A program made the translations under genes and the position numbers. DNA of 64,000 nt from assembly GCF_000744815.1 (NCBI RefSeq), contig NZ_JQMQ01000005.1, forward strand, positions 4,855,801-4,919,800. The letters are read 5' to 3'. How positions within the stretch are numbered: position 1 is the first letter of the stretch; every line of letters starts with the position of its first letter. This DNA comes from Phaeacidiphilus oryzae TH49 (GTDB lineage Bacteria > Actinomycetota > Actinomycetes > Streptomycetales > Streptomycetaceae). Below, piece by piece: positions 17,464 to 33,073 of this stretch. Below the pieces are notes generated by a model. It had not been told where the DNA came from and ran no database searches. It was given only the letters and a program-made list of their open reading frames with translations.

Positions 17464-17839
17464 ATTCTCTTGCCCCAGCCCCGCCCCTTCCCGTTTCCCG
17501 GGGCTGCCGCCCCGGACCTCGCTAAGCGGGCCCGAGCGCAGGCCCGAAGGGCCGGGTAAGGGGCGCGGGGAACTGCGCGCCCGGCCGTCCACGGTGTCGC
17601 GCCCGGCAACGGCGACTGGGCTGCCATCCAATCTCCGTTGCCGAGTGCGGCAGCCTGCGGCGCCGGCCGCGCAGTTCCCCGCGCCCCTGGATTCGCCCTG
17701 CGGGCTGCATCCCGGGCCCGAGGCGGGGTCGGGGAGAGAAACCTGTCAGTCCTTCATGGGACCGTGGAACACCGGACGTCGCCGCAGCGTTGCCGCTGGC
17801 GGTCCCCCCACCCGGTCGCCGCCCAGGGAGTCGCGAAGG
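17464..17839. other. Intergenic region with palindromic repeat
   Basis: 376 bases between two rightward genes. It holds the large palindromic repeat at 17559-17688. The rest (17700-17839) is the probable promoter region of the ABC exporter. No gene is seen. Confidence 0.6.
17559..17688. repeat. Streptomyces-type intergenic palindromic repeat, copy 2
   Basis: AGGGGCGCGGGGAACTGCGC (17559-17578) pairs perfectly over 20 bases with 17669-17688. A second hairpin is nested in the loop: CGGCAACGG (17604-17612) with CCGTTGCCG (17635-17643). The loop shares GGCAACGGCGACTGGGC with the copy at 3637-3761. Here it lies downstream of the frameshifted TPP-enzyme gene and could act as a terminator. Confidence 0.75.
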
Positions 17840-20800
17840 ATGACGCAGTCGAAGAAGCCGAAGGAACCCAAGGAACCGAGGGAGCCCGGCTGGATCCGGC
17901 GGCTCGCCGGGTACTGCTGGCGGTATCGCCGTAACCTGCTGCTCGCCTTCGGCGCCTCGGTGGTCGGGATGGCCGTCACGGCGCTCACCCCGCTCATCCC
18001 CCGGCTGATCATCGACGATGTCATCGTCACCCACTCCCGCCCGCTCGCCCCCTGGGCGACGGCCCTGGTCGGCGCGGCCGTGGTGGTCTTCGCGCTGACC
18101 TTCGTCCGCCGCTACTTCGGCGGCAAGCTGGCCCTGGACGTCCAGCACGACCTGCGGAGCGACCTCTTCACCTCGCTGACCCGGCTGGACGGCGCCCAGC
18201 AGGACCGGCTGGACACCGGTCAGGTGGTCGGCCGGGCGACCTCCGACCTCCAGATGATCATGGGCACGCTGTCCATGTTCCCGATCATGCTGGGCAACCT
18301 CCTCTCCTTTCTGCTGTCCATCGTCGTGATGCTGTTCCTGTCGCCGCTGCTGACGCTGATCGCGGTGGCGATGGCCCCCGCCCTGTGGTGGTTCGCGCAG
18401 CTCAGCCGGAAGAAGCTGTTCCCGGCCACCTGGGCCGCCCAGCAGGAGGCGGCCGCCGTCGCCGGGGTGGTGGACGGCGCGGTCACCGGCGTGCGGGTGG
18501 TCAAGGGCTTCGGTCAGGAGGAGCAGGAGCTGGGCCGGCTTGAGCAGGTCAGCCGCAGGCTCTTCGCCAACCGGCTGCGCAGCATCCGCCTCAGCGCCCG
18601 CTACGCCCCGGCCATGCAGGCCATCCCCGCCCTCGGCCAGGTCGCGGTGCTCGCCTTCGGCGGCTGGCTGGCCGTCCGCGGCGACGTCACCCTCGGCACC
18701 TTCGTCGCCTTCTCCACCTACGTCGCCCAGATGACCGGCCCGGTGCGGATGCTGACCACCCTGCTGACCGTCGGCCAGCAGGCGCGGGCCAGCGTCGAGC
18801 GGGTGGTGCAGCTGATCGACGAGCGCCCGGTGATCACCGAGCGCCCGGACGCCGCCGAGCTCGACCCGGCGGAGGTCGACCGCCGCGACGGCACCCCGGC
18901 GCTCTCCTTCGAGGGCGTCGGCTTCTCCTACGGGTCGGGCGAGGACGACAGGCCCGTGCTCGACGCCCTCGACCTCGCACTCGCGCCCGGCGAGACGGTC
19001 GCCCTGGTCGGGGCCTCCGGCTCCGGCAAGTCCACCGTCGGCATGCTGGTGCCCCGGTTCTACGACGTCACCGCGGGCGCGGTGCGGATCCACGGCCGGG
19101 ACGTCCGCGAGCTGACGCTGCGTTCGCTGCGCTCGGCGATCGGCATCGTGCCCGAGGACAGCTTCCTCTTCTCGGAGTCGGTCCGCGCCAACATCGCCTA
19201 CGGCCGCCCGGAGGCCACCGAGGCCGAGGTGGTGGCCGCGGCCAGGGCCGCGCAGGCGGACGGGTTCATCCGCGCGCTGCCGCAGGGCTACGACACGGTG
19301 GTGGGGGAGCAGGGGCTGACCCTCTCCGGCGGGCAGCGGCAGCGCGTCGCGCTGGCCCGCGCCATCCTCTCCGACCCGCACATCCTCCTCCTCGACGACG
19401 CCACCTCGGCGGTGGACGCCCAGGTCGAGGCGGAGATCCACGACGCCCTGCGGGAGGTGATGCGCGGTCGGACCACCCTCCTCATCGCCCACCGCCGCTC
19501 CACCCTCCAACTCGCCGACCGGATCGCCGTACTGGAGCACGGCCGGCTGGTCGACGTCGGCACCCACGAGGAGCTGGACGCCCGCTGCCCGCTCTACCGC
19601 TCCCTCCTCACCGACCCGGACGCGATGGCGGGCGACGTCCGTGCCGCCGATCCGGCCGCGGCCGAGCTGGCCGCGTCCACGCTGGCGGCCGGCGGCGGCG
19701 CCGACGCGGCGGACCGCGAGCTCGACCGGCTGGAAGAGCTGGAGGAGCTGGAGGGCTTCGAGGAACTCGGCGAACTGGCCGAACTGGACGCCGAGTTGGC
19801 CGAGGCGGCGGACGCGGCGGACGCGGCGGGGGAGGGGGACACCCCCGACCAGGTCACCCCCGAACTGTGGGACCGCTCGCGGTACGCGGACTCCGGCCCC
19901 GAGCACCGGGTCGCGAGCTCCGCCGCCGCCTCCGCCCGCGGCGGCGCGATGGCGGGGGCCCTCCACAGCCTGCCCGCCACCCCGGACCTGCTGGCCAAGG
20001 TGGACGCGCTGCCGCCGGCCACCGACACCCCTGACGTCCCCCTGGACGAGGCGGCCCGGCCCGACCAGGACTTCAGCCTCCGCCGGGTGCTCGCCCCCTT
20101 CCGGCGCCCGCTCTCGGCGGCGCTGGTGCTGGTCGCGCTGGACGCGCTGGCCTCCCTGGTGCTGCCGATCCTGGTGCGCAGCGGCGTCGACAACGGCGTC
20201 AGCCGGCACGCGGTCGGCGGGGTGCTGTCGGTCTCGCTGGTCGCGCTGGTCATCGTCCTCGCCGACTGGGGGGTCGAGGTCGCCGAGACCCAGCTGTCCG
20301 GGCGCACCGGCGAGCGGATCCTCTACGGCCTCCGGGTCAAGATCTTCGCCCACCTCCAGCGGCTCGGACTCGACTTCTACGAGCGCGAGATGGCCGGCCG
20401 GATCATGACCCGGATGACCACCGACGTGGACGCCCTCACCTCGTTCCTGCAGACCGGCGTGGTCACGGCGGTGGTCTCGCTGCTGACCTTCTTCGGGATC
20501 TTCGTCGCCCTGCTGGTGATCGACGCCCAGATGGCGCTCTACGTCTTCGCGGTGCTGCCGCTGCTGATCGTCGCCACCCTGGTGTTCCGCCGGAAGTCCT
20601 CGCAGGCCTACCGGCTGGCCCGGGAGAAGGTCTCGGTGGTCAACGCCGACCTCCAGGAGAACGTCGCCGGGATGCGGATCGTCCAGGCCTTCCTCCGCGA
20701 GGACGGCAACACCGCCCGGTTCGCCGCCCGCAGCGACGACTACCGGCGCACCCGCACCCGCGCCCAGCGGTACATCGCCATCTACTTCCCGTTCGTGCAG

Positions 20801-21829
20801 TTCCTGTCCAGCGTGGCGGCGGCCCTGGTGCTGATCGAGGGCGCGCACCGGGTGAACGCCGGGACGCTGAGCGCCGGCGCGCTGGTCGCCTACCTGCTGT
20901 ACATCGACCTGTTCTTCTCTCCGGTGCAGCAGCTCTCCCAGGTCTTCGACGGCTACCAGCAGGCGGCCGTCGGCCTCTCCCGAATAGGCGAGCTGCTGCG
21001 CACCCCGACCAGCACCCCGCGTCCGGCCGACCCCAGGCCGGTGGGCCGGCTGCGCGGCGAGATCCACTTCGACGGTGTGCACTTCGCCTACTCGGGCTCG
21101 GCGTCCACGAAGGGCGAGGCGCTGCGCGGCATCGAGCTGCGGATACCCGCCGGGCAGACGGTGGCGCTGGTCGGCGAGACCGGCGCCGGGAAGTCCACCC
21201 TGGTCAAGCTGGTCGCCCGGTTCTACGACGCGACCGGCGGCGCGGTCCGGGTGGACGGCACGGACGTCCGCGAGTTCGACCTGACCGAGTACCGGCACCG
21301 GCTGGGCGTCGTCCCGCAGGAGACCTATCTGTTCGCCGGGACCATCCGGGACGCCATCGCCTACGGCCGGCCGGAGGCCTCCGATGCCGAGGTCGAGGCG
21401 GCGGCGCGGGCGGTCGGCGCCCACGAGATGATCGCCCACCTCTCCGGCGGCTACCTCCACCCGGTGAGCGAGCGCGGCCGCAACCTCTCCGCCGGGCAGC
21501 GGCAGCTGATCGCCCTGGCCCGGGCCCAGCTGGTGGATCCGGACATCCTGCTGCTGGACGAGGCCACCGCGGCGCTGGACCTGGCCACCGAGGCGGCCGT
21601 CAACCGGGCCGCCGACCGGCTGGCCCGCAAGCGCGGCGGCGGGCGCAGGACCACCCTGGTGATCGCCCACCGGCTGTCCACCGCGGCCCGCGCCGACCGG
21701 GTGGTGGTGATGGACCACGGCCGGGTGGTGGAGAGCGGGACGCACGACGGCCTGCTGGCCGAAAACGGCGCGTACGCCCGGTTGTGGCGGGCGTTCACCG
21801 GGGAGGCCGAGACCACATCGGCGGGCTGA
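17840..21829 (+). CDS. Fused ABC exporter, two membrane/ATPase halves in one chain
   Basis: 1329 residues containing two complete exporter halves. Half 1 has six spans, Walker A GASGSGKST near 391 and signature LSGGQ at 495-499. Half 2 has six spans, Walker A GETGAGKST and signature LSAGQ at 1216-1220. The site formed by NBD1 Walker B (Asp520 where the catalytic Glu should be) and the NBD2 LSAGQ signature is degenerate; the other site (Glu1241 with LSGGQ) is intact, as in heterodimeric exporters. A Glu/Leu/Ala-rich acidic linker of about 150 residues joins the halves. GGGAG lies nine bases before ATG 17840. Lipid, peptide or drug export is likely; substrate unknown. Confidence 0.92.
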   Translation: MTQSKKPKEPKEPREPGWIRRLAGYCWRYRRNLLLAFGASVVGMAVTALTPLIPRLIIDDVIVTHSRPLAPWATALVGAAVVVFALTFVRRYFGGKLALDVQHDLRSDLFTSLTRLDGAQQDRLDTGQVVGRATSDLQMIMGTLSMFPIMLGNLLSFLLSIVVMLFLSPLLTLIAVAMAPALWWFAQLSRKKLFPATWAAQQEAAAVAGVVDGAVTGVRVVKGFGQEEQELGRLEQVSRRLFANRLRSIRLSARYAPAMQAIPALGQVAVLAFGGWLAVRGDVTLGTFVAFSTYVAQMTGPVRMLTTLLTVGQQARASVERVVQLIDERPVITERPDAAELDPAEVDRRDGTPALSFEGVGFSYGSGEDDRPVLDALDLALAPGETVALVGASGSGKSTVGMLVPRFYDVTAGAVRIHGRDVRELTLRSLRSAIGIVPEDSFLFSESVRANIAYGRPEATEAEVVAAARAAQADGFIRALPQGYDTVVGEQGLTLSGGQRQRVALARAILSDPHILLLDDATSAVDAQVEAEIHDALREVMRGRTTLLIAHRRSTLQLADRIAVLEHGRLVDVGTHEELDARCPLYRSLLTDPDAMAGDVRAADPAAAELAASTLAAGGGADAADRELDRLEELEELEGFEELGELAELDAELAEAADAADAAGEGDTPDQVTPELWDRSRYADSGPEHRVASSAAASARGGAMAGALHSLPATPDLLAKVDALPPATDTPDVPLDEAARPDQDFSLRRVLAPFRRPLSAALVLVALDALASLVLPILVRSGVDNGVSRHAVGGVLSVSLVALVIVLADWGVEVAETQLSGRTGERILYGLRVKIFAHLQRLGLDFYEREMAGRIMTRMTTDVDALTSFLQTGVVTAVVSLLTFFGIFVALLVIDAQMALYVFAVLPLLIVATLVFRRKSSQAYRLAREKVSVVNADLQENVAGMRIVQAFLREDGNTARFAARSDDYRRTRTRAQRYIAIYFPFVQFLSSVAAALVLIEGAHRVNAGTLSAGALVAYLLYIDLFFSPVQQLSQVFDGYQQAAVGLSRIGELLRTPTSTPRPADPRPVGRLRGEIHFDGVHFAYSGSASTKGEALRGIELRIPAGQTVALVGETGAGKSTLVKLVARFYDATGGAVRVDGTDVREFDLTEYRHRLGVVPQETYLFAGTIRDAIAYGRPEASDAEVEAAARAVGAHEMIAHLSGGYLHPVSERGRNLSAGQRQLIALARAQLVDPDILLLDEATAALDLATEAAVNRAADRLARKRGGGRRTTLVIAHRLSTAARADRVVVMDHGRVVESGTHDGLLAENGAYARLWRAFTGEAETTSAG

Positions 21830-21992: not shown

Positions 21993-22583
21993 GTGATCAG
22001 GGTGTTACTCGTGTTGGACGAGTGTCTGACCAGGTCGGCCTTAGCGATGGTGCTGGGTCAGGACAGCGAGCTCACCGTCCGGGGGGTCTCGGGGAAGGAG
22101 GCGCGGGAGCGGGCCCGCTCGCTCAGACCCGAGGTCTGCGTGGTGGACGCGGAGTGCGTGCCGCCGCGCGACCTGGCCGCACTGGGGGACACCGCCGGCG
22201 CGTTGCTGGCGCTGGTGCCGGCGGGTCGGCCTGGCCTGCTGGCACAGGCCGCGCAGGCGCACGCGCAGGGCTACGCCGACAAGGACACCACCCCCGAGCG
22301 GCTGCTGGAGGGGATCAGAAAGGTCGCGGACGGCGAGTCCTACGTCGACGGGGCCCTCGCGCCCAGCTTTCTCCGCGCGGCGACCACCCGGATGCCGCTG
22401 ACCCCGAGGGAGCTGAGCGTGCTGGAACTGGCCGCCCAGGGGGCCACCGCCGCCGAGATCGCCCAGGTGCTGCATCTGGCGCTGGGCACCGTGCGCAACT
22501 ACCTCTCGGCCGCGGCCCGCAAGATCGGCGCGCGGAACCGGGTGGACGCGGTACGCCTCTGCCACCAGCAGGGCTGGCTGTGA
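21993..22583 (+). CDS. ramR: RamR/AmfR-like response regulator (NarL/LuxR type)
   Basis: 196 residues. The receiver-like N-terminal domain has the acidic pair Asp9-Glu10, putative phospho-acceptor Asp52 and Lys97. The C-terminal LuxR helix-turn-helix (about 135-190) reads LTPRELSVLELAAQGATAAEIAQVLHLALGTVRNYLSAAARKIG. RamR/AmfR activates the adjacent lanthipeptide operon during aerial growth. GTG 21993 follows GGGAG at eight bases. Codons 5 and 17 are both TTA, so translation should depend on the developmental bldA tRNA. The stop is 33 bases from the convergent ramB stop. No sensor kinase gene is nearby, as for RamR. Confidence 0.88.
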   Translation: MIRVLLVLDECLTRSALAMVLGQDSELTVRGVSGKEARERARSLRPEVCVVDAECVPPRDLAALGDTAGALLALVPAGRPGLLAQAAQAHAQGYADKDTTPERLLEGIRKVADGESYVDGALAPSFLRAATTRMPLTPRELSVLELAAQGATAAEIAQVLHLALGTVRNYLSAAARKIGARNRVDAVRLCHQQGWL

Positions 22584-22616
22584 GACGGGCGCCCCTTCGG
22601 ACGGAGCAGCGGACGG

Positions 22617-24401
22617 TCAGGCGTCCTCCTCCCCGACCCTCCAGTGGCCGACCAGGTCGCGGTAGAGGGGTGAGCGGGCGAGGAGCTCGTCGTGGGTGCC
22701 GAGGAGCGGCTCTCCGCCGTCCATCAGCAGCACGCGGTCCGCGCGGAGAGCCGAGCTGAGGCGGTGGGCGATGACGATCAGCGCCGCCGGCGGGTCCGCG
22801 GCGGCGCTCTTCGCCCGTGTGGCGAAGGCGCGTTCGGCACGTGCCTCGGCGGCCGGGTCGAGCCCGCTGGTGGCCTCGTCCAGTACGGCCAGCGGGGCGG
22901 GGGAGAGCCAGGCGCGGGCGAGGGCGACGGACTGTCGCTCCCCGAGCGACAGCCGGGCCCCGGCCGGTTCGAAGCCGGCGTCCAGCCCGCCGAGCCGCCG
23001 CGCGACCGGCGCGAGCCCGAAGAGTTCGACGGCGGCCGCCAGTTCCGCCTCCTCGGTGGCCGGATCCGGCCCCCCGGGGCGGAGGTAGCGCAGATTCTCC
23101 CGGAGGGTCCCGGTGAAGACGTAGGCCTCCTGGGGGATCAGCACCCGGGGGCCGGCCCGCCGGACCTCGCCCTCGTCGGCCTGCCGCAGCCCGCTGATCA
23201 GCGACGCCAGCGTCGACTTGCCGATCCCGCTGGGGCCGACCACCGCCAGATGGCCTCCGGCGGGGACCACCAGGTCGACCCCGCGCAGCACCGGCTCCGC
23301 CCCGCCTCCGTAGCCGAACCCCACCCCCCGCAGCTCGACCGCCGCGGAGCCGCCGGGAACGGCCCGGCCGTCCGGCTCCGGGGCCGCCGGCGCCACTGGG
23401 TCGAGGAGGCGGCGGAGGACGACGGTGAGGCGGGTGGCGGTGGTGCCCAGCCCGTGGGTGAGGGCCTGCTGGGCGGGGAGGAGGGACTGGGTGAGGTAGG
23501 TGAGGGCGCCGGCCAGGTCGCCGACGGTCACCCCGCGGCCCAGCAGCCATGGAGCGGAGACCAGGAGGAGGATGATCGGCAGGCGCCCGCCGATCCCCAG
23601 GGCGAGGGCGCGGGCCGCACTCCAGCGCGCCAGCGCACGGGAGGCGCGTGCCTCGGCGTCCACCGCGGGCAGCACGCGGGTGCAGGCGGCCTCCTCCGCG
23701 CCGGAGGCCGCGACGTCCCGCAGCCCCTCGGCCACCTCGCCCGCGCGGGCCGCGATCCGCTCGTCGGCGAGGAGGAACTCCCGCTGCCTGGCCGCCATCG
23801 GCCGCAGCGTCGCCGCGAACAGCGCCAGTCCGGCCAGCACCGGCGGCAGGACGAGGAGCAGCAGCACCGGCGCGAGCGTGGCCAGTCCCGCGAGGGCGCC
23901 GGCCGCCGTGAAGGCGAACGAGCGGGCGACGGTGACCAGCCCGGCGAAGCCGTCCCTGGCCAGCTCGACCTGGTGGGTCAGCCGGGAGACGGCCGCCGTG
24001 TCCGAGGTGGCCACCGAACGGCCGGTGGCGGCGACGGCGGAACGCAGCGCGCCCGCCACCACCCGGCGCACCAGCGCGTCGCGCAGCGGCTCGGTGAGGC
24101 CGGCCAGCCCGAGGTAGCTGCTCGCGGTGCCGCCCGCGCCGATGACGGCGGCCGCGGCGGCGATCCCCAGCCAGCCGATCCCGGTCACCGGGCGGCCGAC
24201 CAGGAAGCCCTGGTCCAGCGCGGCGGCGACGGCGTAGCCGAAGACGAAGGTCTGTCCGCTCTCCAGCAGCGAGGAGAGCAGCAGGGCGCCCAGGGTGCCG
24301 GGCCGCCGACGGAGGAAGGCGGCGCCGCGCCGGAGGAGCGGCGGCCCGGTGTCCGGCGGCCCGGTGTCCGGCGGCCCGGCGTCCTCCGCCCGCGCCCTCA
24401 T
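22617..24401 (-). CDS. ramB: Lanthipeptide ABC exporter subunit RamB-like
   Basis: 594 residues: six membrane spans, then an ATPase domain with Walker A GPSGIGKST, a non-canonical signature LSLGERQ and canonical Walker B LAVLDEATSGLD with catalytic Glu. The N-terminus repeats PPDTGPPDTGPP, from a 15-base tandem repeat near 24345-24380. ATG 24401 overlaps the ramA stop (ATGA), indicating coupled translation. With RamA it should form a heterodimeric exporter for the processed peptide, with one intact ATP site made of RamB Walker B and the RamA signature. Confidence 0.88.
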   Translation of the reverse strand: MRARAEDAGPPDTGPPDTGPPLLRRGAAFLRRRPGTLGALLLSSLLESGQTFVFGYAVAAALDQGFLVGRPVTGIGWLGIAAAAAVIGAGGTASSYLGLAGLTEPLRDALVRRVVAGALRSAVAATGRSVATSDTAAVSRLTHQVELARDGFAGLVTVARSFAFTAAGALAGLATLAPVLLLLVLPPVLAGLALFAATLRPMAARQREFLLADERIAARAGEVAEGLRDVAASGAEEAACTRVLPAVDAEARASRALARWSAARALALGIGGRLPIILLLVSAPWLLGRGVTVGDLAGALTYLTQSLLPAQQALTHGLGTTATRLTVVLRRLLDPVAPAAPEPDGRAVPGGSAAVELRGVGFGYGGGAEPVLRGVDLVVPAGGHLAVVGPSGIGKSTLASLISGLRQADEGEVRRAGPRVLIPQEAYVFTGTLRENLRYLRPGGPDPATEEAELAAAVELFGLAPVARRLGGLDAGFEPAGARLSLGERQSVALARAWLSPAPLAVLDEATSGLDPAAEARAERAFATRAKSAAADPPAALIVIAHRLSSALRADRVLLMDGGEPLLGTHDELLARSPLYRDLVGHWRVGEEDA

Positions 24402-26224
24402 GAGGCCTGCGGCGGCCGGAACAGCGACCGGTAGTCGGGGTCCTGCCAGAGTGCCCGATGCGGGCCGACCGCGCGGATCCCGCCGCCCGCCTCCCGGCCG
24501 GCCAGCCAGACCACCTGGTCGGCCCGGGCCGCCGTGGCCGCGCGGTGGGCGACGACCAGCCGGGTCGGGGTCGGCAGCCGCTCCCGCAGCGCGCGGGTGA
24601 CCTCCAGCTCGGTGGCGGTGTCCAGGCTGGATGTGGCGTCGTCCAGGATCAGCAGCCGGCCCCGCCTGGCCTGCGCGAACGCCCGGGCCAGGCCGAGCCG
24701 TTGGGCCTCGCCGCCGGAGAGCGGGGCCTCCGCGCACGGGGTGCGGTAGCCGCGGGGGAGCCGGCTGACGAACGCGTCGGCGCTGGCCGCCCGGGCAGCC
24801 TCCCGGACGGCCTCGGGAACTCCTTCGGGCACATCCTCGGGAACGGCCTCGGCGGCGGCCGGCCCCCGCAGGCCCAGCGCGATGGTGTCCGCGAGGGTCT
24901 CCCCCAGCAGCGCCGGCCGGGCGAACGCGTAGCCGACCGCCGTCCGCAGCTCCTCCCGGCGCAGCGCGGTCAGCGGCACACCGTCGAGGAGCACCTCGCC
25001 GGACTCCGGTTCGGCGAGCCGCCCGGCCAGCGCGGCCAGCAGCGACTTCCCGGAGCCGGACGGGCCGACCACGGCGGTGGTGGCGCCGGCCGGGAAGTCG
25101 AGGTCCACGTCCTTGAGGAGGCCGTCGCCTGCCGAGACCCCGCGAAAGGTCAACTCGCCCTTGCCGTCCGGCAGTCCCTCCGTTCCCCAGGCGGTCGCCG
25201 GCACCTCCGTCACCCCGGGGCGGCCCGGCGCCCCCGCCAGCCGGGCGGCCGCCGCCCGCCCCCGGGCCAGCACGGACGCCGAGCCGCTGAGCGAGCCGAT
25301 CCCGGCCGCCAGGGTGGCGTAGCGGGCGGCCGCCAGCAGCTCGCCGACGCTCAGCCGCCCGGCCGAGAGCAGCAGGCCCCCGCAGGCGAGGACGAGGACC
25401 TGCAGGACCGGTACGACGGCAGCGGCCTGCCCGGCGGCCCTGCCCTGCACGGCCCACATCCGGTGGCCGTGGACGCCGAGTTCGGGCAGCGGGCCGAGGA
25501 TCCGGGAGCGCTCGCGGTCCTCCGTCCCGGCGGCGGCGATGGTACGGGCGCCCGCCAGCGCCTCCACCAGCCGGGCGGCGATGGAGCCCTGGGCGCGGAG
25601 GTAGTCGCCGACGCAGGCGGTGGTGGCCCGGGTGAAGGAGCGGAGGAGCAGTACCAGCGCCGGCACCCCGGCGAGGAAGGCCAGCAGCAGCCACGGCGAG
25701 AGCAGTCCGAGCGCGACCAGTCCGCCGAGCGGCAGGGCGAGGGCGGCCAGGGCGCCGGCCAGGCCGGTGGCCGCGCCGGCCGTGTCGGCGGTGGCGGCGG
25801 TGAACCTCCCGACCAGGTCACCGGGGCCGATCCGGTCGGTCAACCGCGGTCCGCAGAAGGCGATGTGACGGAAGATCAGGCGGCGCAGCCGGGCGGTGTT
25901 GCGGGCGTCCGTCGCGCCCGAGAGATAGCCGGAGCCGGCCTCTGCGGCGATCGAGGCGGCGGTCAGCGCGGCACAGGCCAGGAGCCAGAGCCGGGCGCTC
26001 CCGCCGGCCGCGCCGCCCGCGCCCTCGGCGCCGCCCGCGTGCGCCCGGACCACCAGGTCCAGCGCCTTGCCCAGCGCGGCGGGCAGCGCCAGCGCGCTTC
26101 CGGTGGAGACCATGCCCAGCAGGGCGAGGGCGGCCAGCCGGATCCGGCTCGCCCGCACCACCGACAGCAGCAGCCGGCCGGCGGGGGAGCCGCGCGGGCC
26201 GCGCCCGGCACGCGAGCCGGGCAC
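24398..26224 (-). CDS. ramA: Lanthipeptide ABC exporter subunit RamA-like
   Basis: About 608 residues: six membrane spans then an ATPase domain with Walker A GPSGSGKS, signature LSGGEAQ and Walker B LLILDDATSSLD. Asp replaces the catalytic Glu, so this subunit supplies the degenerate half of the heterodimer. The frame is open from 26281, but that would start inside the 16-bp hairpin and overlap the ramS stop region. GTG 26224, just beyond the hairpin, is the preferred start, yet it lacks a good ribosome-binding site and later GTG codons are possible. Third gene of the ramC-S-A-B operon. Confidence 0.85.
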   Translation of the reverse strand: MPGSRAGRGPRGSPAGRLLLSVVRASRIRLAALALLGMVSTGSALALPAALGKALDLVVRAHAGGAEGAGGAAGGSARLWLLACAALTAASIAAEAGSGYLSGATDARNTARLRRLIFRHIAFCGPRLTDRIGPGDLVGRFTAATADTAGAATGLAGALAALALPLGGLVALGLLSPWLLLAFLAGVPALVLLLRSFTRATTACVGDYLRAQGSIAARLVEALAGARTIAAAGTEDRERSRILGPLPELGVHGHRMWAVQGRAAGQAAAVVPVLQVLVLACGGLLLSAGRLSVGELLAAARYATLAAGIGSLSGSASVLARGRAAAARLAGAPGRPGVTEVPATAWGTEGLPDGKGELTFRGVSAGDGLLKDVDLDFPAGATTAVVGPSGSGKSLLAALAGRLAEPESGEVLLDGVPLTALRREELRTAVGYAFARPALLGETLADTIALGLRGPAAAEAVPEDVPEGVPEAVREAARAASADAFVSRLPRGYRTPCAEAPLSGGEAQRLGLARAFAQARRGRLLILDDATSSLDTATELEVTRALRERLPTPTRLVVAHRAATAARADQVVWLAGREAGGGIRAVGPHRALWQDPDYRSLFRPPQAS

Positions 26225-26257
26225 GGCCCGAGGCGGGTTGACCGCCTCGGGCCGTGC
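26221..26257 (-). terminator. Perfect 16-bp hairpin between ramS and ramA (attenuator)
   Basis: GCACGGCCCGAGGCGG (26221-26236) and its exact complement (26242-26257) flank a five-base loop, 15 bases after the ramS stop. A second 7-bp stem (26203-26209 / 26216-26222) follows immediately. The position suggests partial termination or 3'-end protection, so that precursor and synthetase exceed transporter mRNA. Confidence 0.7.
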
Positions 26258-26271
26258 CGTTTCGGGGTGGA

Positions 26272-26400
26272 TCACAGGCACAGGAGGACGCTCGCGAAGC
26301 TGTCGCAGAGCGTCAGGCTCACCGAGCTGCCGCCGCCGTGCCCGTCGCCGCCACCCTCGGGGGCCGGCGGTTCCATTGCCTGGAGGTCGAGGAGTGCCAT
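26272..26400 (-). CDS. ramS: Class III lanthipeptide precursor (SapB/AmfS-like)
   Basis: 42 residues. The leader starts MALLDLQAM, the conserved LLDLQ helix recognised by class III synthetases, then a Pro/Glu/Gly-rich spacer. The core (about residues 22-42) has two labionin-type motifs SxxSxxxC: Ser25-Ser28-Cys32 and Ser34-Ser37-Cys41, separated by Asp33 and ending in Leu42. This is the layout of SapB and AmfS, surface-active peptides that let aerial hyphae leave the medium. The core differs from both in its Gly-rich N-terminus and the residues inside the rings. AGAGG lies nine bases before ATG 26400; ramC ends 56 bases upstream. Confidence 0.93.
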   Translation of the reverse strand: MALLDLQAMEPPAPEGGGDGHGGGSSVSLTLCDSFASVLLCL

Positions 26401-26456
26401 GATGCGGAACCTCTCTTCTATGGGGTTGACCGGAACGGTCGGACGGGACCGTCCGG

Positions 26457-29183
26457 TCACCCGGCCCCGGTCGGGGACGGGTGCTCTGGGGCCGCCGCGG
26501 TCTGCGGCAGCGGGTGGAGCGCGGGCAGGAAGGGCAGCCCGGTCGGGTGCGGGCCGACCGCCGCCGCGACGGCCAGCAGGCAGCCGGCGGTGCCGGTGGC
26601 GAGGTCCATCGAGAGCCGGAGCATCTGGTCCCCCGGGACGGCCAGTCCGCCGCCGTACGGGAGGGAGTACCAATCCAGCTCGGCGAGTTGGCGCTCCATC
26701 GCCTGCCGCGCCTCCGGGGCGTACCGCGCCTCGCGTGCCAGCGCGAGGATCATCCCCGCGCGCCCGCGGAAGAGCCCCGGCTGGGCGTAGAACCGGCAGC
26801 GGGCGGCACGTCCGATCGCCTCCCGTGCCTCCGCGAACTCGGCGGCCTCGCCCGGGCGGAGGCGGAGGTAGTCGTCGAGCACCGTGCCGATGCCGACGCT
26901 GCCCGCGCCCAGATACGGCATGGTGCGGGTGCCCTCGTCGACCGCCAGGGCGCCGTCGGGGCCCTTCACGCAGCGGTCCAGCTCGGCGCGGAGGGCGGCG
27001 CCCGCGAGGTCCAGGTACGCCTCCTCGGCCGCCCCCACCGTCCGGGCCGCCTCGTGGTGCCGGATCAGGAAGAGGGCCGCGCCGGTTCTGCCGTGCAGCA
27101 GGCCGACTCGCGGGACGGGGCGCCCGGCGGCGAGCCGGTCGGCCACCGTGTCGGCGGCCTGCCGGGCGGCGGCGGACAGGTCGGGCCTGCGGAGGTCGGT
27201 GCCGAGCCGGTCGAGGAGCAGGCCGATGCCGGCCAGCCCGCCGTAGAGGTCACTGGGGAGGCGCAGCCAGTTCTCGGCGAGGATCGCCTCGGTGAGGGCG
27301 CCGGCGGTCTCCGGGTGGCCCAGCCTGGCCAGTACGAGGGCGTCCCCGGCGAGTCCGTCGTACAGTCCGGGGCGCTGTGCGGCGTGCGGGCCCGTCGGGC
27401 CGGTGCCGTCCGCGAGGGTGCCGCGCCGGGCCGCCCGCAGCAGCCATTCCTCCCCGGCCGGATAGCGGGGCGCGCCCGCCTCGGCGAGGGCGTAGAGGAC
27501 CCCGCAGGCGCCGTGGGCCAGGCCGTGTCCGCGGCCGTCCTCGGTGAACTGGGCGATGTCGCCAGGGAAGAGGCGGTCCTCGCGCTCCGGCGTGGCCGAG
27601 GCGAGGATGGCCGCGGCCATCGCGTCCCGCGCGGCCGGCCAGTCCCCGAACGCGGGCAGCCCCTCGCGTACCGGCACCCGCCGCGCCCAGGAGCGCGCCC
27701 GGGCGGAGCCGAGGCCGGATGCCGGGCCCGGCTCGCCCTCGATCTCCGCGACCGCCTCGGTCAGCCATCGCTCGTCCAGGTCAGGGAACATCCGCCGGAT
27801 CAGCTCGGCCAGATGCCGGGCCTTGCCACGGTCCAGCCCGATCAGGCTGGTCAGCGGCAGGAAGAGGGCCAGTCGCAGGCAGGCCAGCGCGTAGCGGTCC
27901 ACGGCGAAGCCGGTGCGGTCGGCCGGGGCCAGGAAGCCGGGGTGGGCCAGCGCCCGCACCCGGCCTTCGTCCAGCGGCGCGGCGGCCTCGAAGTCCAGCA
28001 GCGCCACGCTGTCGTCCGGCCGCACCATCACGTTGAACATGTGGAGGTCGTGGAAGACGATGCCGCGCCCGTGCACCTGCCGGACCGCCGCCTCCACCCC
28101 GGCCTGCACCCCCAGCGCCCAACGGGTGTACGCGGCCAGCCGCTCGGCCGAAGGCTCCCGGCTGATCAGCGGATACCGCTCGGCGTAGCAGGAGTTGAGG
28201 GTCCGGCCGGGGAGGAACTCCTCGACCAGGAAGTGGTGCTCGCCCAGCTCGAACCAGTCCAGCGCGTCCGGTGCCGCGTCCAGGCCCTCCAGGGCCTTCA
28301 GCGCCGCGTGCTCCCGGCGCAGCCGGGCGACCGCGTCGGCTCCGTCGGCGCCGAGACCCGCATGCGGCCGGGCCTCCTTCAGCACCACCTGCCGGCCGCT
28401 GCGCAGGTCGGTTCCCGCGTACACCCCGCCGCCGTTGGAGAAGTGCAGCGCCCGGTCGATCCGGTACGGCAGGTCGCCCACCGTCGTCGCCGCCCGCTCG
28501 GCCGCGTACGGCCGCAGGAACCCGGGCAGCGGCACCCACTCCGGCAGCGCGAACACCGGTCCGCGGACGTCCGGCACCAGCCGGCCGCCGGCGTCCTCGA
28601 TCGCCGGCACCAGCGAGCCGTGCTCGTCGGTGCAGTACCGCTCGGTGAACCCGCCGTACCGGACGAAGACCGGCCGGTCCGCCCCGCAGCGCAGATCGCT
28701 GAGGATGTACGGGCCGGGCTCACCGGCCAGCGCGTCGCCGAGCGCCGCCACCAGGGTCGCCGCCGCGCGCTCGTCGGCCGGATAGACGGTGGCGAACTTG
28801 CCGCTCTGGCCGCGCGGGGCGTACTTGGCGTTGCGCAGCAGCAGCCGGCGCCGGGTCGGCACGAACTTGAACGAGACCCGCCGGGAGACGCAGATCTCCC
28901 AGACCCGCTCCAGCACCCGGTCGGCGTTGTCCAGGGTGGCCGAGACGTGGATCTTCCAGCCCTGCGCGGGCAGCTCGGCGTTCTCGGGGTGCAGCTGCAC
29001 CCAGTCGCCGAGGGCGGTGCGGCGCCAGCCGTCCGGGGTCGGGCGGTCGGCGGCGGCGAGGAGGCCGGCGTCGCCGCCGGCGGTGCGAGCGCCGGAACCG
29101 GCACCGAGGCCGGCTCCCGGCGCCCCCGGCGTCTCGTAGAAGGTGCGGTCGGCCAGACAGTAGGCCTCGTAGCGCTTCTCCAC
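26457..29183 (-). CDS. ramC: Class III lanthipeptide synthetase (lyase-kinase-cyclase) RamC-like
   Basis: 908 residues. The N-terminal phosphoserine-lyase region (about 1-230) is followed by a Ser/Thr-kinase-like domain: glycine loop SNGGGVYAG 249-257, Lys269 in VVLKE, catalytic loop HDLHMFN 378-384 and DFE 397-399. A LanC-like cyclase domain (about 540-890) has repeated GLYDGLAG / LYGGLAGIG / LLHGRTG / YLGAGSVGIG turns, but I do not see the zinc-ligand WCxG/CHG signature, as expected for class III. GTG 29183 follows GGAGG with close spacing. It phosphorylates core Ser, eliminates to dehydroalanine and forms (labionin) rings in RamS. Confidence 0.93.
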   Translation of the reverse strand: MEKRYEAYCLADRTFYETPGAPGAGLGAGSGARTAGGDAGLLAAADRPTPDGWRRTALGDWVQLHPENAELPAQGWKIHVSATLDNADRVLERVWEICVSRRVSFKFVPTRRRLLLRNAKYAPRGQSGKFATVYPADERAAATLVAALGDALAGEPGPYILSDLRCGADRPVFVRYGGFTERYCTDEHGSLVPAIEDAGGRLVPDVRGPVFALPEWVPLPGFLRPYAAERAATTVGDLPYRIDRALHFSNGGGVYAGTDLRSGRQVVLKEARPHAGLGADGADAVARLRREHAALKALEGLDAAPDALDWFELGEHHFLVEEFLPGRTLNSCYAERYPLISREPSAERLAAYTRWALGVQAGVEAAVRQVHGRGIVFHDLHMFNVMVRPDDSVALLDFEAAAPLDEGRVRALAHPGFLAPADRTGFAVDRYALACLRLALFLPLTSLIGLDRGKARHLAELIRRMFPDLDERWLTEAVAEIEGEPGPASGLGSARARSWARRVPVREGLPAFGDWPAARDAMAAAILASATPEREDRLFPGDIAQFTEDGRGHGLAHGACGVLYALAEAGAPRYPAGEEWLLRAARRGTLADGTGPTGPHAAQRPGLYDGLAGDALVLARLGHPETAGALTEAILAENWLRLPSDLYGGLAGIGLLLDRLGTDLRRPDLSAAARQAADTVADRLAAGRPVPRVGLLHGRTGAALFLIRHHEAARTVGAAEEAYLDLAGAALRAELDRCVKGPDGALAVDEGTRTMPYLGAGSVGIGTVLDDYLRLRPGEAAEFAEAREAIGRAARCRFYAQPGLFRGRAGMILALAREARYAPEARQAMERQLAELDWYSLPYGGGLAVPGDQMLRLSMDLATGTAGCLLAVAAAVGPHPTGLPFLPALHPLPQTAAAPEHPSPTGAG

Positions 29184-29258
29184 CGGGTCCCCCTCCGGCC
29201 GTCGGCTGCCTGATCGACCTTTCCAGCCGGGCGCCGGAGGGGGGAGTGGCGTTCGTCA

Positions 29259-29272
29259 TCACCCAACGGTGA
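29259..29272. promoter_or_regulatory. Inverted repeat upstream of ramC, candidate operator
   Basis: TCACC-CAAC-GGTGA is a perfect 5-bp inverted repeat, 76-89 bases upstream of the ramC start in the only gap available for its promoter. It may be the RamR-binding site; TCACCC-type elements are, from memory, part of the known RamR/AmfR sites. Confidence 0.4.
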
Positions 29273-29321
29273 ATAACTCACTGATGCGAAAAGAGGCGTG
29301 AACACGGATCAGCTGTTCGAC

Positions 29322-30974
29322 TCAGCAGCGGGAGACCCGGTCCTGGGTGAGGTAGCCGTGGTCGGCCGTCAGCAGGTGGTCGTAGCAGGAGCCGGTGTCC
29401 GTGCTGCCGGTCCAGTGCTCGCTGCCGGAGCCGTCGGCGGCGGTCACCGTGCCGTCGCTGCGGGCCAGCACGCCGGTCGCGGAGAGCCGGTCGTCGGTCC
29501 AGCCGTCGGGCCCGTCCAGGATCCGGCCCTGGGTGACGGTCGCCTGGAGCCGGTAGTCGTTCCCGTCCGTGTAGAGCGGGATGTACGAGTCCACGGTGAT
29601 CGGGTACGACCAGCTCTCCCGCACCGCCCGGCCGTTGGCGGTGACCGTCGTCGAGCCGTACTCCTGCTGGGCCATCACCTGGCGCTGGCCGGCCGAGGAG
29701 ACCGCGTCGGTGTTCAGGTAGTGGGCGTCCTGGGCGACCGTGGTGGTCACCCGGCCGTGCGAGGTCAGCAGATAGCCGGAGGTGTGCCAGGCCCGCTCGG
29801 CCCGCACCCGGACGTCGGTCTCGCCGGAGGCCGCGCCGGAGCCCGGCGTCTCGGTGGTGGTCACCCCCGGGTCCGCGTTGAGGGTGTCCGCGGTGAGCGC
29901 CCCCGTGGTCTGCTCCGAGCCGTGGTCGGTGTCCAGGAAGAGGGTCCCGTCCACGATCCACTCGTCCGCCGAGCCGTACGGGGTGATGGTGACGGTGTGC
30001 GGCCTCCCGTCGGTCAACTCACCCGCGAACGGCGTCAGATCGATGTCGTACGGCTGGGTGAGGAACTGGTCGATCGCCGGGATCGGGCGCCACAGGGTGG
30101 GCACGATCCCGCCCGAGTAGACCACCGGGTACGGCTGCGCGAGACCGGCCGGCCTGCCGTCCACCGCGACCTGCACCTCGCGGTACGGGCCGCCGCCGCA
30201 CAGGTAGTCCGGGTACTCGGCGGCCAGGTCGCTCGGCACCGCCGTGAACCACTGCTCGTCGCAGCCGCCGCCCCTGGCGTACACCTCCATCCGGACCGAG
30301 GTGAGGTTGCGCGGGAAGACCACCGACCTGCTCGCCGAGCCGCCCGCGCCCAGCGACCACCAACCGGCCTGCGTGGTGCTGCCGTTGGAGAGCGGCAGCA
30401 CCTGGTCGGCCGCCCTGGGCGCCGGGTGGGCGGCGTCGGCCTGGTAGTAGGTGAGCGTCAGCGTCATGTGGTAGACGCCCGTGTAGGTGGTGTCGACGAT
30501 GTTGCCGAGGTCCACCACCAGCGGCTGGGCGGAGTGGAGGAGCGGGGCGAAGGGGGTGACGTCCTTCTCCACGGACCAGCTGATCCCGTCCGGATCCGGC
30601 TCGGGTGTACTGGTGCGCAGCACCTCGGCGCCGCCGATCCACACCCCGGCCAGCCGGTCGTACTGGCGGCCCTGGACGCTGCCGGACCAGCCGAGCACCA
30701 CCTTGTTCCACGGCCCCGGGCAGGCCGCCGGGGGCGCGACGGTGCCGGTGTAGGGGGAGTTGTAGCTGTTGGCGAAGTCGTGCCGCATGACCGTCACCGA
30801 GCAGTGCGGGGTGTCCGGGTGGGAGACCGGCGGGGCCGCGCTGACCGGGTTCTGGTAGTCGACCTCGATCCCGCCGGCCGCCGCGGCGGGACCCACGCCC
30901 CACCCCAGCACCACCAGCAGGGCCGCGGTGCCCGTCGCGGCCAGCCATCGGGCCGAGCGTCTTATCGCGTGCAT
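29322..30974 (-). CDS. Secreted PNGase A-like peptide-N-glycanase
   Basis: 550 residues. A Sec signal peptide (basic start, hydrophobic core, GPAAAAGG cleavage area near 30-35) precedes a protein resembling peptide-N4-(N-acetyl-beta-glucosaminyl)asparagine amidase A: WNKVVLGWSGSVQGRQYDRLAGVWIGGAEVLRTSTPEPDPDG and the VYHMTLTLTYY strand are characteristic. The family removes whole N-glycans from glycoproteins, including plant-type alpha-1,3-fucosylated ones, outside the cell. The C-terminal half is a beta-rich extension with several Cys. GGAGGTG precedes ATG 30974 at eight bases. It is divergent from the next gene and separate from the ram operon, whose synthetase lies downstream on the same strand. 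Confidence 0.8.
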   Translation of the reverse strand: MHAIRRSARWLAATGTAALLVVLGWGVGPAAAAGGIEVDYQNPVSAAPPVSHPDTPHCSVTVMRHDFANSYNSPYTGTVAPPAACPGPWNKVVLGWSGSVQGRQYDRLAGVWIGGAEVLRTSTPEPDPDGISWSVEKDVTPFAPLLHSAQPLVVDLGNIVDTTYTGVYHMTLTLTYYQADAAHPAPRAADQVLPLSNGSTTQAGWWSLGAGGSASRSVVFPRNLTSVRMEVYARGGGCDEQWFTAVPSDLAAEYPDYLCGGGPYREVQVAVDGRPAGLAQPYPVVYSGGIVPTLWRPIPAIDQFLTQPYDIDLTPFAGELTDGRPHTVTITPYGSADEWIVDGTLFLDTDHGSEQTTGALTADTLNADPGVTTTETPGSGAASGETDVRVRAERAWHTSGYLLTSHGRVTTTVAQDAHYLNTDAVSSAGQRQVMAQQEYGSTTVTANGRAVRESWSYPITVDSYIPLYTDGNDYRLQATVTQGRILDGPDGWTDDRLSATGVLARSDGTVTAADGSGSEHWTGSTDTGSCYDHLLTADHGYLTQDRVSRC

Positions 30975-31177
30975 CGGTGCGCCACCTCCGCCTCACCTGA
31001 ACCTGTGTCAGGACCATGCCCCACCCGTCACAACCCGCACAAGAGCCCGAGCCGTTGTGGCCGGTGATCTCGGCGGAGCCGGGTGCGGACACGGCGCGAA
31101 TGCGGAACGATGAGGGCGGACCAGGGTTTTCGCAGCGTTTTCGACGAGCTCGAGCAAGCCCGACGACGAGGAGACGT

Positions 31178-33073
31178 ATGGTGCGCGGCAAGCCGGCACG
31201 GGGCTGGTGGGGGCGGCTCGCCCACCCGCGGACGGCGGCGGCCACCGCCGGGCCGGAACCGGACACCGGGCGCGAGGGCCGCGGGTCGTCGGCCATGGGC
31301 GGGAGTACCGCCGGCGTCTCGCCGGAGGCCTCGGCCGAGGCCGCGGGCGGACCCGCCGAGCACGGTTCTGCGGCCCCCTCCGAGCCGCCGGCCCCGCGGC
31401 CGGTCGCGGACACCCTCGCCACCGTCCTCGGCCCCCACGCCCCCGGTGCCGGCTCCGGCGGCGGTTCCGCCGCGGGCGGCGGTCCCGGCCAGGACGCCTC
31501 GGCGAAGGGCTGGGACGAGGAGAGCTGGGACGAGGACGCCGAAGGCGAGCCCGACGGCCCTCGACTCCCGCCCGTAGAAGGCCCGTCGGCGAACGCCCAT
31601 CCGCACGCCACGGCGACGGTGAACGCCGCCCCCCAGGACCCGGCCGCCGCCCGCAGCCGCCGCTCCTACCTCGCCGCCCAGTACACCGAGGCCGCCGAGG
31701 ACGCCGAGCAGCGCCTGGAGGAGCTGCTGGCGATAGCCGCCGAACCCCCGCCCCCGGCCGACTTCGACTCCCTCCGCCGGCACTACCGCCCCCGGCCGCT
31801 GCCGCCGGAGGCCGACCCCGGCACGCCGCCGGCCTGGGCCGACTACGCCCCGCCGGAGCCGTCCGGGCAGTCCACTGGGCAGTCCGCCGGCCAGAGCGCG
31901 GGCGCCCGCAGCGCCGCCTCGTCGGTCGGCTCCGGCTCGGCCTCGCCCGCCTCCCGCGAGTACCTCAGGATCCGCGCCGAGGCCCGTCTGGCGTACCAGA
32001 AGGCGCTGCGCGAATTCCGGGAGCGGCAGAGCGAGTTGGCCGAGGCCTCGGCCCGGGTGCACGCCGAGCACGAGCAGGCCGAGCGGGCCCGAGAGCACGC
32101 CGTCCGCGAGTTCAACCAGCGCCTCGACGTCTGCCGGGAGGCCTACGAGGACGCCCAGCCGCAGGCCGTCGAGTCGGTGCTCGAGCGCGCCCTGGCCACC
32201 GCCACCGCCCGGCTCACCGACCAGCTCCCGGGCCTTCCCGGGCTGCCCGGCACCGGCAGCGCGCGGGTCCGCTACCGCTCCCTCACCCGCACCGCCGTCG
32301 TCGACCTGGCGCTGCCCGCGCCCGGCATCGTCCCGGCCGCGCTCAGCTTCCGCCCGGCCCTCGAAGGGGTCGAGGGCATCCAGCGCCCGCCCGCCGAAGT
32401 GCGGGCCCGCTACGAGCAGTTGACCGCACGGCTGGTGCTCCGCGCGCTCTACGCCCTGCTCGCCGTGGACACCGGCGGCGTCCTCTACGGCATCGTCCTC
32501 AACGGCCGGGTCGGCACCCCCGACCCGGAGTCGCGCTGCCTGGTCTCGGTGGACGCCCGCTACGAGGAGCTGGTCGGCGGCGACGCCCTGCTGCCGCTCC
32601 ACCACGCCGAGGCGGTCGAGCGGCTGCGCGCGCTCAGCGGCGCCCACTCCGACGACCCGTACGCCCAGCACCCGGTGCAGCCCCGCGCGCAGCTGCCCAT
32701 GACGGACGCGCCGCCCGCGCCCGAGCAGCTGTCCCAGGGCGAATTCGCCGCGCTGGCAGCCGAGTTGTTCGACCGGATGGGCAGCACCGGCTGGTCGCCG
32801 CGGCTGCTCGGCCGGGACGGCCTGCTGGCCCTCGCCGACGAGGAGGTGGTCTGCGTGGCCCGCCGGCCGCAGGTGATCAGCGCCGACGCGGTGCGCAGCG
32901 CCCTGGAGGCCGCCGAGGAGGAGGGCCGGCCGCGCTGCGTCTGGGCCACCACCGGACGCTTCCACCCGGACGCGGAGGCGCTGGCCGAGGAACGCCCGGA
33001 GCTCCGGCTGATCGACGGCGTCGAGCTGCGCGACCTGATCCGCACCCAGCTCGGGGCCGAACTGGGCGGCTGA
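31178..33073 (+). CDS. Coiled-coil protein with degenerate Mrr-like nuclease domain
   Basis: 631 residues. The first 230 are low-complexity (Ala/Gly/Pro/Ser, acidic). Residues about 255-345 form a charged coiled coil (EYLRIRAEARLAYQKALREFRERQSELAEA...). A compact domain follows, including RYRSLTRTAVVDLALPAP and LTARLVLRALYALLA. The last 100 residues resemble the Mrr_cat restriction-endonuclease fold: GWSPRLLGRDG, then VVCVARRPQVISADAVRSAL, CVWATTGRFHPDAEALAEER and LIDGVELRDLI. The usual [Q/E]xK catalytic pair is replaced (VCVAR), so nuclease activity is doubtful. ATG 31178 follows GGAG with a short spacer; GTG 31181 is the alternative. Confidence 0.7.
   Translation: MVRGKPARGWWGRLAHPRTAAATAGPEPDTGREGRGSSAMGGSTAGVSPEASAEAAGGPAEHGSAAPSEPPAPRPVADTLATVLGPHAPGAGSGGGSAAGGGPGQDASAKGWDEESWDEDAEGEPDGPRLPPVEGPSANAHPHATATVNAAPQDPAAARSRRSYLAAQYTEAAEDAEQRLEELLAIAAEPPPPADFDSLRRHYRPRPLPPEADPGTPPAWADYAPPEPSGQSTGQSAGQSAGARSAASSVGSGSASPASREYLRIRAEARLAYQKALREFRERQSELAEASARVHAEHEQAERAREHAVREFNQRLDVCREAYEDAQPQAVESVLERALATATARLTDQLPGLPGLPGTGSARVRYRSLTRTAVVDLALPAPGIVPAALSFRPALEGVEGIQRPPAEVRARYEQLTARLVLRALYALLAVDTGGVLYGIVLNGRVGTPDPESRCLVSVDARYEELVGGDALLPLHHAEAVERLRALSGAHSDDPYAQHPVQPRAQLPMTDAPPAPEQLSQGEFAALAAELFDRMGSTGWSPRLLGRDGLLALADEEVVCVARRPQVISADAVRSALEAAEEEGRPRCVWATTGRFHPDAEALAEERPELRLIDGVELRDLIRTQLGAELGG

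Follow-up and report, generated by a model that had tools for sequence, protein, structure and literature searches.

An intact SapB/AmfS-family class III lanthipeptide locus with a diverged promoter element in Phaeacidiphilus oryzae TH49

Morphogenetic activity has been reported for SapB, for AmfS and for a variant of durhapeptin, and over 4,000 annotated precursors of the SapB/AmfS family are on record (PMC13380574). Durhapeptin, published in 2026, is encoded by the durA/durKC/durT locus of Streptomyces durhamensis; the evidence supports two labionin rings in this peptide, and some species form aerial hyphae in response to the variant (PMC13380574). The producer itself does not respond to the variant, nor was the native peptide detected in culture (PMC13380574). 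In the leaders of these precursors LLDLQ is the motif recognized by the synthetase (PMC13380574), and in other class III systems the leader is removed by an enzyme encoded elsewhere (PMC8960859). As to regulation, work cited in PMC5650626 is reported there to have found RamR binding upstream of ramC, and Chandra and Chater pointed out that in most amf-like clusters either the regulator gene or the synthetase gene contains a TTA codon (PMC4255298).

Here we describe a class III lanthipeptide cluster in a window of 64 kb (the whole stretch of DNA that was analysed), in which all five genes lie within 21993-29183 and all frames are open:

21993..22583, plus strand: RamR/AmfR-type orphan NarL-family response regulator, 196 aa, GTG start
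22617..24401, minus strand: second ABC half-transporter, 594 aa, with a 4-nt overlap with the preceding gene of the operon
24398..26281, minus strand: first ABC half-transporter, 627 aa
26272..26400, minus strand: precursor peptide, RamS/AmfS homologue, 42 aa
26457..29183, minus strand: class III lanthionine synthetase LanKC, RamC/AmfT homologue, 908 aa, with lyase, kinase and zinc-free cyclase domains

The synthetase, the precursor and both transporters are thus encoded on the minus strand, and the regulator gene on the plus strand converges with that of the second transporter. When compared with relatives' loci, the lengths of the reading frames are typical for the family, and the locus is neither a chance occurrence nor a relic; it is of the standard ramCSAB-ramR / amf type and an intact representative of the SapB/AmfS family. 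The original prediction of a complete SapB/AmfS-like class III locus with five parts is borne out by the coordinates and by the family scores given below. Taking all the evidence together, we regard it as very probable that this intact locus yields an exported two-ring peptide, most likely a morphogen of aerial hyphae, under RamR/AmfR and bldA control.

The synthetase scores 1050 bits against the class III LanKC model NF038151 (cut-off 575) and 393 bits against the class IV model NF038150 (cut-off 650), and matches RamC_N (PF25816) with 262 bits. The solved structures that align with it are those of class III enzymes: ThurKC, SalKC and the kinase-domain chain 7wj6. With ThurKC as the class III structural reference (PMC10604976), the kinase carries DFE in place of DFG (LLDFEAA, aligned to IIDFETA of ThurKC), and the Cys-Cys-His zinc ligands are absent from the cyclase, sequence alignment placing Gly, Phe and Arg at ThurKC Ser726, Phe770 and Asp771. 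We assign the enzyme to class III rather than class IV because of the difference between the two family scores and the lack of zinc ligands. Its identity to the synthetases of relatives is ~50-60%. A second synthetase-like gene with RamC_N and kinase domains is present in the same genome (L003 / L107, G000:C5:5314000-5328000), and its best NCBIfam score is to class IV LanL, below the cut-off; it was ruled out as a partner for the precursor, being class IV-like, 0.44 Mb distant and without a family precursor alongside.

The first half-transporter matches PF00664 with 79.3 bits and PF00005 with 75.2 bits, and the second matches PF00005 with 66.4 bits and ABC_membrane with 23.9 bits, the last slightly below the cut-off. 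A domain search found no C39 peptidase domain in either half-transporter, which rules out a leader protease built into the transporters, and no protease gene is encoded within the five-gene locus. Adjoining the regulator there is a fused double exporter of 1411 aa in which ABC membrane and ABC ATPase domains each occur twice (17594-21829, plus strand), and beside the synthetase promoter a PNGase A-like protein (29322-30974, minus strand; PF12222, 295 bits); further on, a 685-aa frame (31016-33073, plus strand) has a C-terminal Mrr-type restriction endonuclease domain.

The precursor, MALLDLQAMEPPAPEGGGDGHGGGSSVSLTLCDSFASVLLCL (the translation of 26272-26400, minus strand), matches two family models over its full length, residues 1-42: NF033212 SapB_AmfS_lanti with 63.8 bits (cut-off 25) and PF19402 RamS with 64.9 bits (cut-off 24.3). 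None of the other class III precursor models reaches its cut-off. The precursor had been predicted to have 42 residues and to carry Ser25-Ser28-Cys32 and Ser34-Ser37-Cys41, positions that match the translation, and it can be divided as follows:

26329..26400, minus strand: leader, residues 1-24 (putative boundary), with the MALLDLQ recognition helix and the Gly-rich junction, from the translation
26275..26328, minus strand: putative core SSVSLTLCDSFASVLLCL, residues 25-42, with two SxxSxxxC motifs and a one-residue linker

The precursor has no match in a plasmid collection, and a plasmid origin was set aside.

Among 55 distinct precursors of the family, all have two SxxSxxxC motifs; GGG precedes the first motif in 41, 27 end in Cys-Leu, and 22, including that of the window, have one residue between the motifs, the others having longer spacing. 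The SapB and AmfS types in this set have a two-residue linker. The core does differ, as had been proposed, from those of SapB and AmfS, which have other linker lengths and C-terminal residues; the Gly-rich junction and the Leu after the last Cys, which had also been taken as distinctive, turn out to be common (41/55 and 27/55). Together these features define a common subtype with a characterized member. No core identical to SSVSLTLCDSFASVLLCL was found in the sets searched, which included 395 genomes of the family and the 55 distinct precursors; the closest retrieved core is SNVSLLLCDSTASVLLCL, identical at 15/18 positions, followed by SEASLLLCDSTASVLLCL at 14/18. The exact core is new in the sets searched and the cluster type is common and well known; the claim to novelty is weak because the Gly-rich junction and the Cys-Leu end are common and durhapeptin is already published.

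Of 395 genomes sampled from the same bacterial family, 226 were found to encode a RamS-family precursor, and these belong to 10 of 17 genera. The genome of the window, the sole member of its genus in the set, carries one such precursor. With the synthetase as a single query, two loci were returned from a collection of 84,980 genomes, a type of search in which single proteins reach close relatives only. The neighbourhoods of 39 other loci and of one in Streptomyces hoynatensis were also retrieved. Of the ~36 family loci examined in full, nearly all have synthetase, precursor and the two transporters in this order and a regulator gene that converges on them; the exceptions are contig ends and the loci L089 and L094. 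In these two the regulator lies close behind the precursor, with neither transporter gene seen in the interval.

The regulator has a GerE/LuxR helix-turn-helix domain (57.2 bits, cut-off 23.5) and a receiver domain that is weak in Pfam (15.8 bits) but aligns throughout with 37 relatives encoded at the corresponding place in their loci, and Asp52 is invariant in all of them. Scanning codons in the sequence revealed two in-frame TTA codons:

22005..22007, plus strand: TTA codon 5 of the regulator
22041..22043, plus strand: TTA codon 17 of the regulator

There are none in the synthetase or the two transporter genes of the window. By the same scan at least one TTA codon, at varied positions, is found in 29 of 38 regulators (that of the window included), compared with 9/40 synthetases, 0/39 first transporters and 0/39 second transporters, which confirms the known bldA-type pattern. 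The two codons should couple translation of the regulator to the bldA Leu-tRNA.

Upstream of the synthetase we identified a composite promoter element in which the following parts can be distinguished:

29237..29294, minus strand: diverged copy of the composite element conserved upstream of ramC/amfT homologues, located by weight matrix
29268..29282, minus strand: AGTGAGTTATTCACC, which forms the palindromic half of the element and is at the same time an exact AGTGA-N5-TCACC
29242..29258, minus strand: TGACGAACGCCACTCCC, degenerate counterpart of the relatives' TGACANNCGTGACTGTC, with position and spacing as in relatives

In relatives, among the loci L062-L101, the element upstream of the synthetase consists of CGTGCGTTCCGCACG, ~10 bases and then TGACANNCGTGACTGTC, and its gapped words are present in up to 31 of 36 upstream sequences, as against at most 6 in shuffles. 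The weight matrix was built from 27 relatives with the window left out; L098 and L101, retrieved as matches to the family but with only distant synthetases and transporters and no regulator found, were excluded from the model. The window element scores 14.7 bits, and no other place in the 64 kb exceeds -7.8 bits; the elements of the 27 relatives score 19.8-73.4 bits, such that the window's is weaker than all of them. The AGTGA-N5-TCACC site matches once in the window, where 0.02 matches are expected, and 5 times in the 7.8-Mb genome. This sequence at 29268..29282 is BldD-like by the consensus; it aligns as a diverged form of the conserved palindrome GTGCGTTCCGCAC. A BldD box as such was set aside and kept as a resemblance only, most relatives being without it at this place.

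The strict, direct-repeat form of the element is found in 17 of 200 genomes, always as one copy. In 16 of these it lies just ahead of the synthetase and in the 17th before a truncated synthetase start, and the strict element is specific to the ram/amf locus. In genome G181 (L124 / L125, G181:C1:414000-430000; near L124:1470-1710), the full element stands before a synthetase gene of which the initial codons and a truncated remainder are left; this locus is a relic of a lost cluster. We infer that the composite element is bound by the RamR-type regulator, with the TGACGAACGCCACTCCC region as a possible RamR/AmfR site. Because the window element scores below those of all 27 relatives, regulation in the window may differ or be weaker. 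It is also conceivable, if rather doubtful, that GTGCGTTCCGCAC, ~10 nt and TGACANNCGTGACTGTC form a dedicated switch, present once per genome at this locus only and read by the RamR/AmfR regulator and a second factor; if so, the window would show the element co-diverging with the species-specific peptide. Part of this promoter picture may already be known.

From these observations a likely course of events can be outlined. The LLDLQ leader helix would be bound by LanKC, which would phosphorylate Ser25, Ser28, Ser34 and Ser37, and elimination of phosphate would produce dehydroalanines; two rings, labionin or lanthionine, would then be closed by Cys32 and Cys41. The peptide would be exported by the two ABC half-transporters. 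As the transporters have no peptidase domain and the locus has no protease, the leader is probably cut off by an enzyme encoded outside the locus. The product is predicted to be a hydrophobic two-ring peptide of ~18-22 residues, its most likely place of action being the interface between colony and air, where it would allow aerial hyphae to emerge. For the fourfold-dehydrated peptide the calculated [M+H]+ is 1785.89 if it starts at Ser25 and 1956.96 if GGG is retained ahead of the core; dehydration of Ser26 or Thr30 as well would lower the value by 18.01. Expression would probably be activated by the convergent RamR/AmfR-type regulator, acting on the element upstream of the synthetase gene.

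By homology, a morphogenetic role is the likeliest one, and it is not assured for every member of the family, since the durhapeptin variant is inactive on its producer and the native peptide was undetected. A class III lanthipeptide whose main role lies elsewhere, for example in antimicrobial action or signalling as for some class III products, seems to us improbable in view of the membership of the precursor in the SapB/AmfS subfamily, with other class III precursor models below their cut-offs, and of the gene order, which, together with the convergent RamR-type regulator, is the ram/amf arrangement tied to development. Nor do we consider it likely that the locus is silent or decaying, with intact genes behind a drifted promoter and an operon that is little used. 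Loss of this kind does occur, as in the relative G181 with its retained promoter and truncated synthetase, no promoter element scored was weaker than that of the window, and durhapeptin was undetected in its own producer under the tested condition (PMC13380574); yet the five reading frames here are open and of family-typical length, and the element exceeds every other place in the 64 kb by >20 bits.

The nature of the rings is a separate matter, and that the same locus with the same role makes lanthionines is an alternative that deserves to be taken seriously, even if it is not the one we prefer. SapB and AmfS each have two lanthionines, and ring type in this group is not predictable from the synthetase sequence (PMC13380574). 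Set against this, the core has the one-residue linker and SVLLCL end of durhapeptin, whose labionins are supported, and it is solely by this likeness that we favour labionin over lanthionine for the morphogen proposed here.

The window adds one core sequence, from a genus that is represented in the set by one genome only, which could help to test the idea that the species specificity of aerial growth is set by core sequence. The conserved promoter element offers a simple handle with which to locate ram/amf-type loci and to probe their regulation. Neither would surprise a specialist; the element may merit a small follow-up.

To place the locus among known systems, we compared it with SapB, AmfS, a related locus from the same family and durhapeptin. 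The genes and their order, the class III synthetase, the two predicted rings and the RamR-type regulator are as in the SapB locus ramCSAB-ramR of Streptomyces coelicolor; SapB-type cores differ in having a two-residue linker and a Cys-Asn end (SRASLLLCGDSSLS.TTCN). Gene set and order are also those of the amf locus, with amfR, of Streptomyces griseus, and the AmfS-type loci L084 and L087 have TTA codons in the regulator as the window does, whereas in the AmfS-type core SQVSLLVCEYSSLSVVLCTP (L087) the linker is two residues long and the last Cys is followed by Thr-Pro. In L021/L062, a locus of genome G002 from another genus of the family, the precursor is 77% identical over the aligned length and the core, SNVSLLLCDSTASVLLCL, differs at three of its 18 residues; the transporters are 51-55% and the regulator 49% identical. 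Durhapeptin, TGASTASLLSCVSAASVLLCL, shares 12/18 ring-region residues with the window core (a count made by eye). Compared with it, the window core has Asp rather than Val as the linker residue, Phe rather than Ala at position 11 and Thr at position 6, and the window precursor has no TG ahead of the core. Common to both are the five-gene layout, the LLDLQ leader, two SxxSxxxC motifs joined by a one-residue linker, and the C-terminal SVLLCL.
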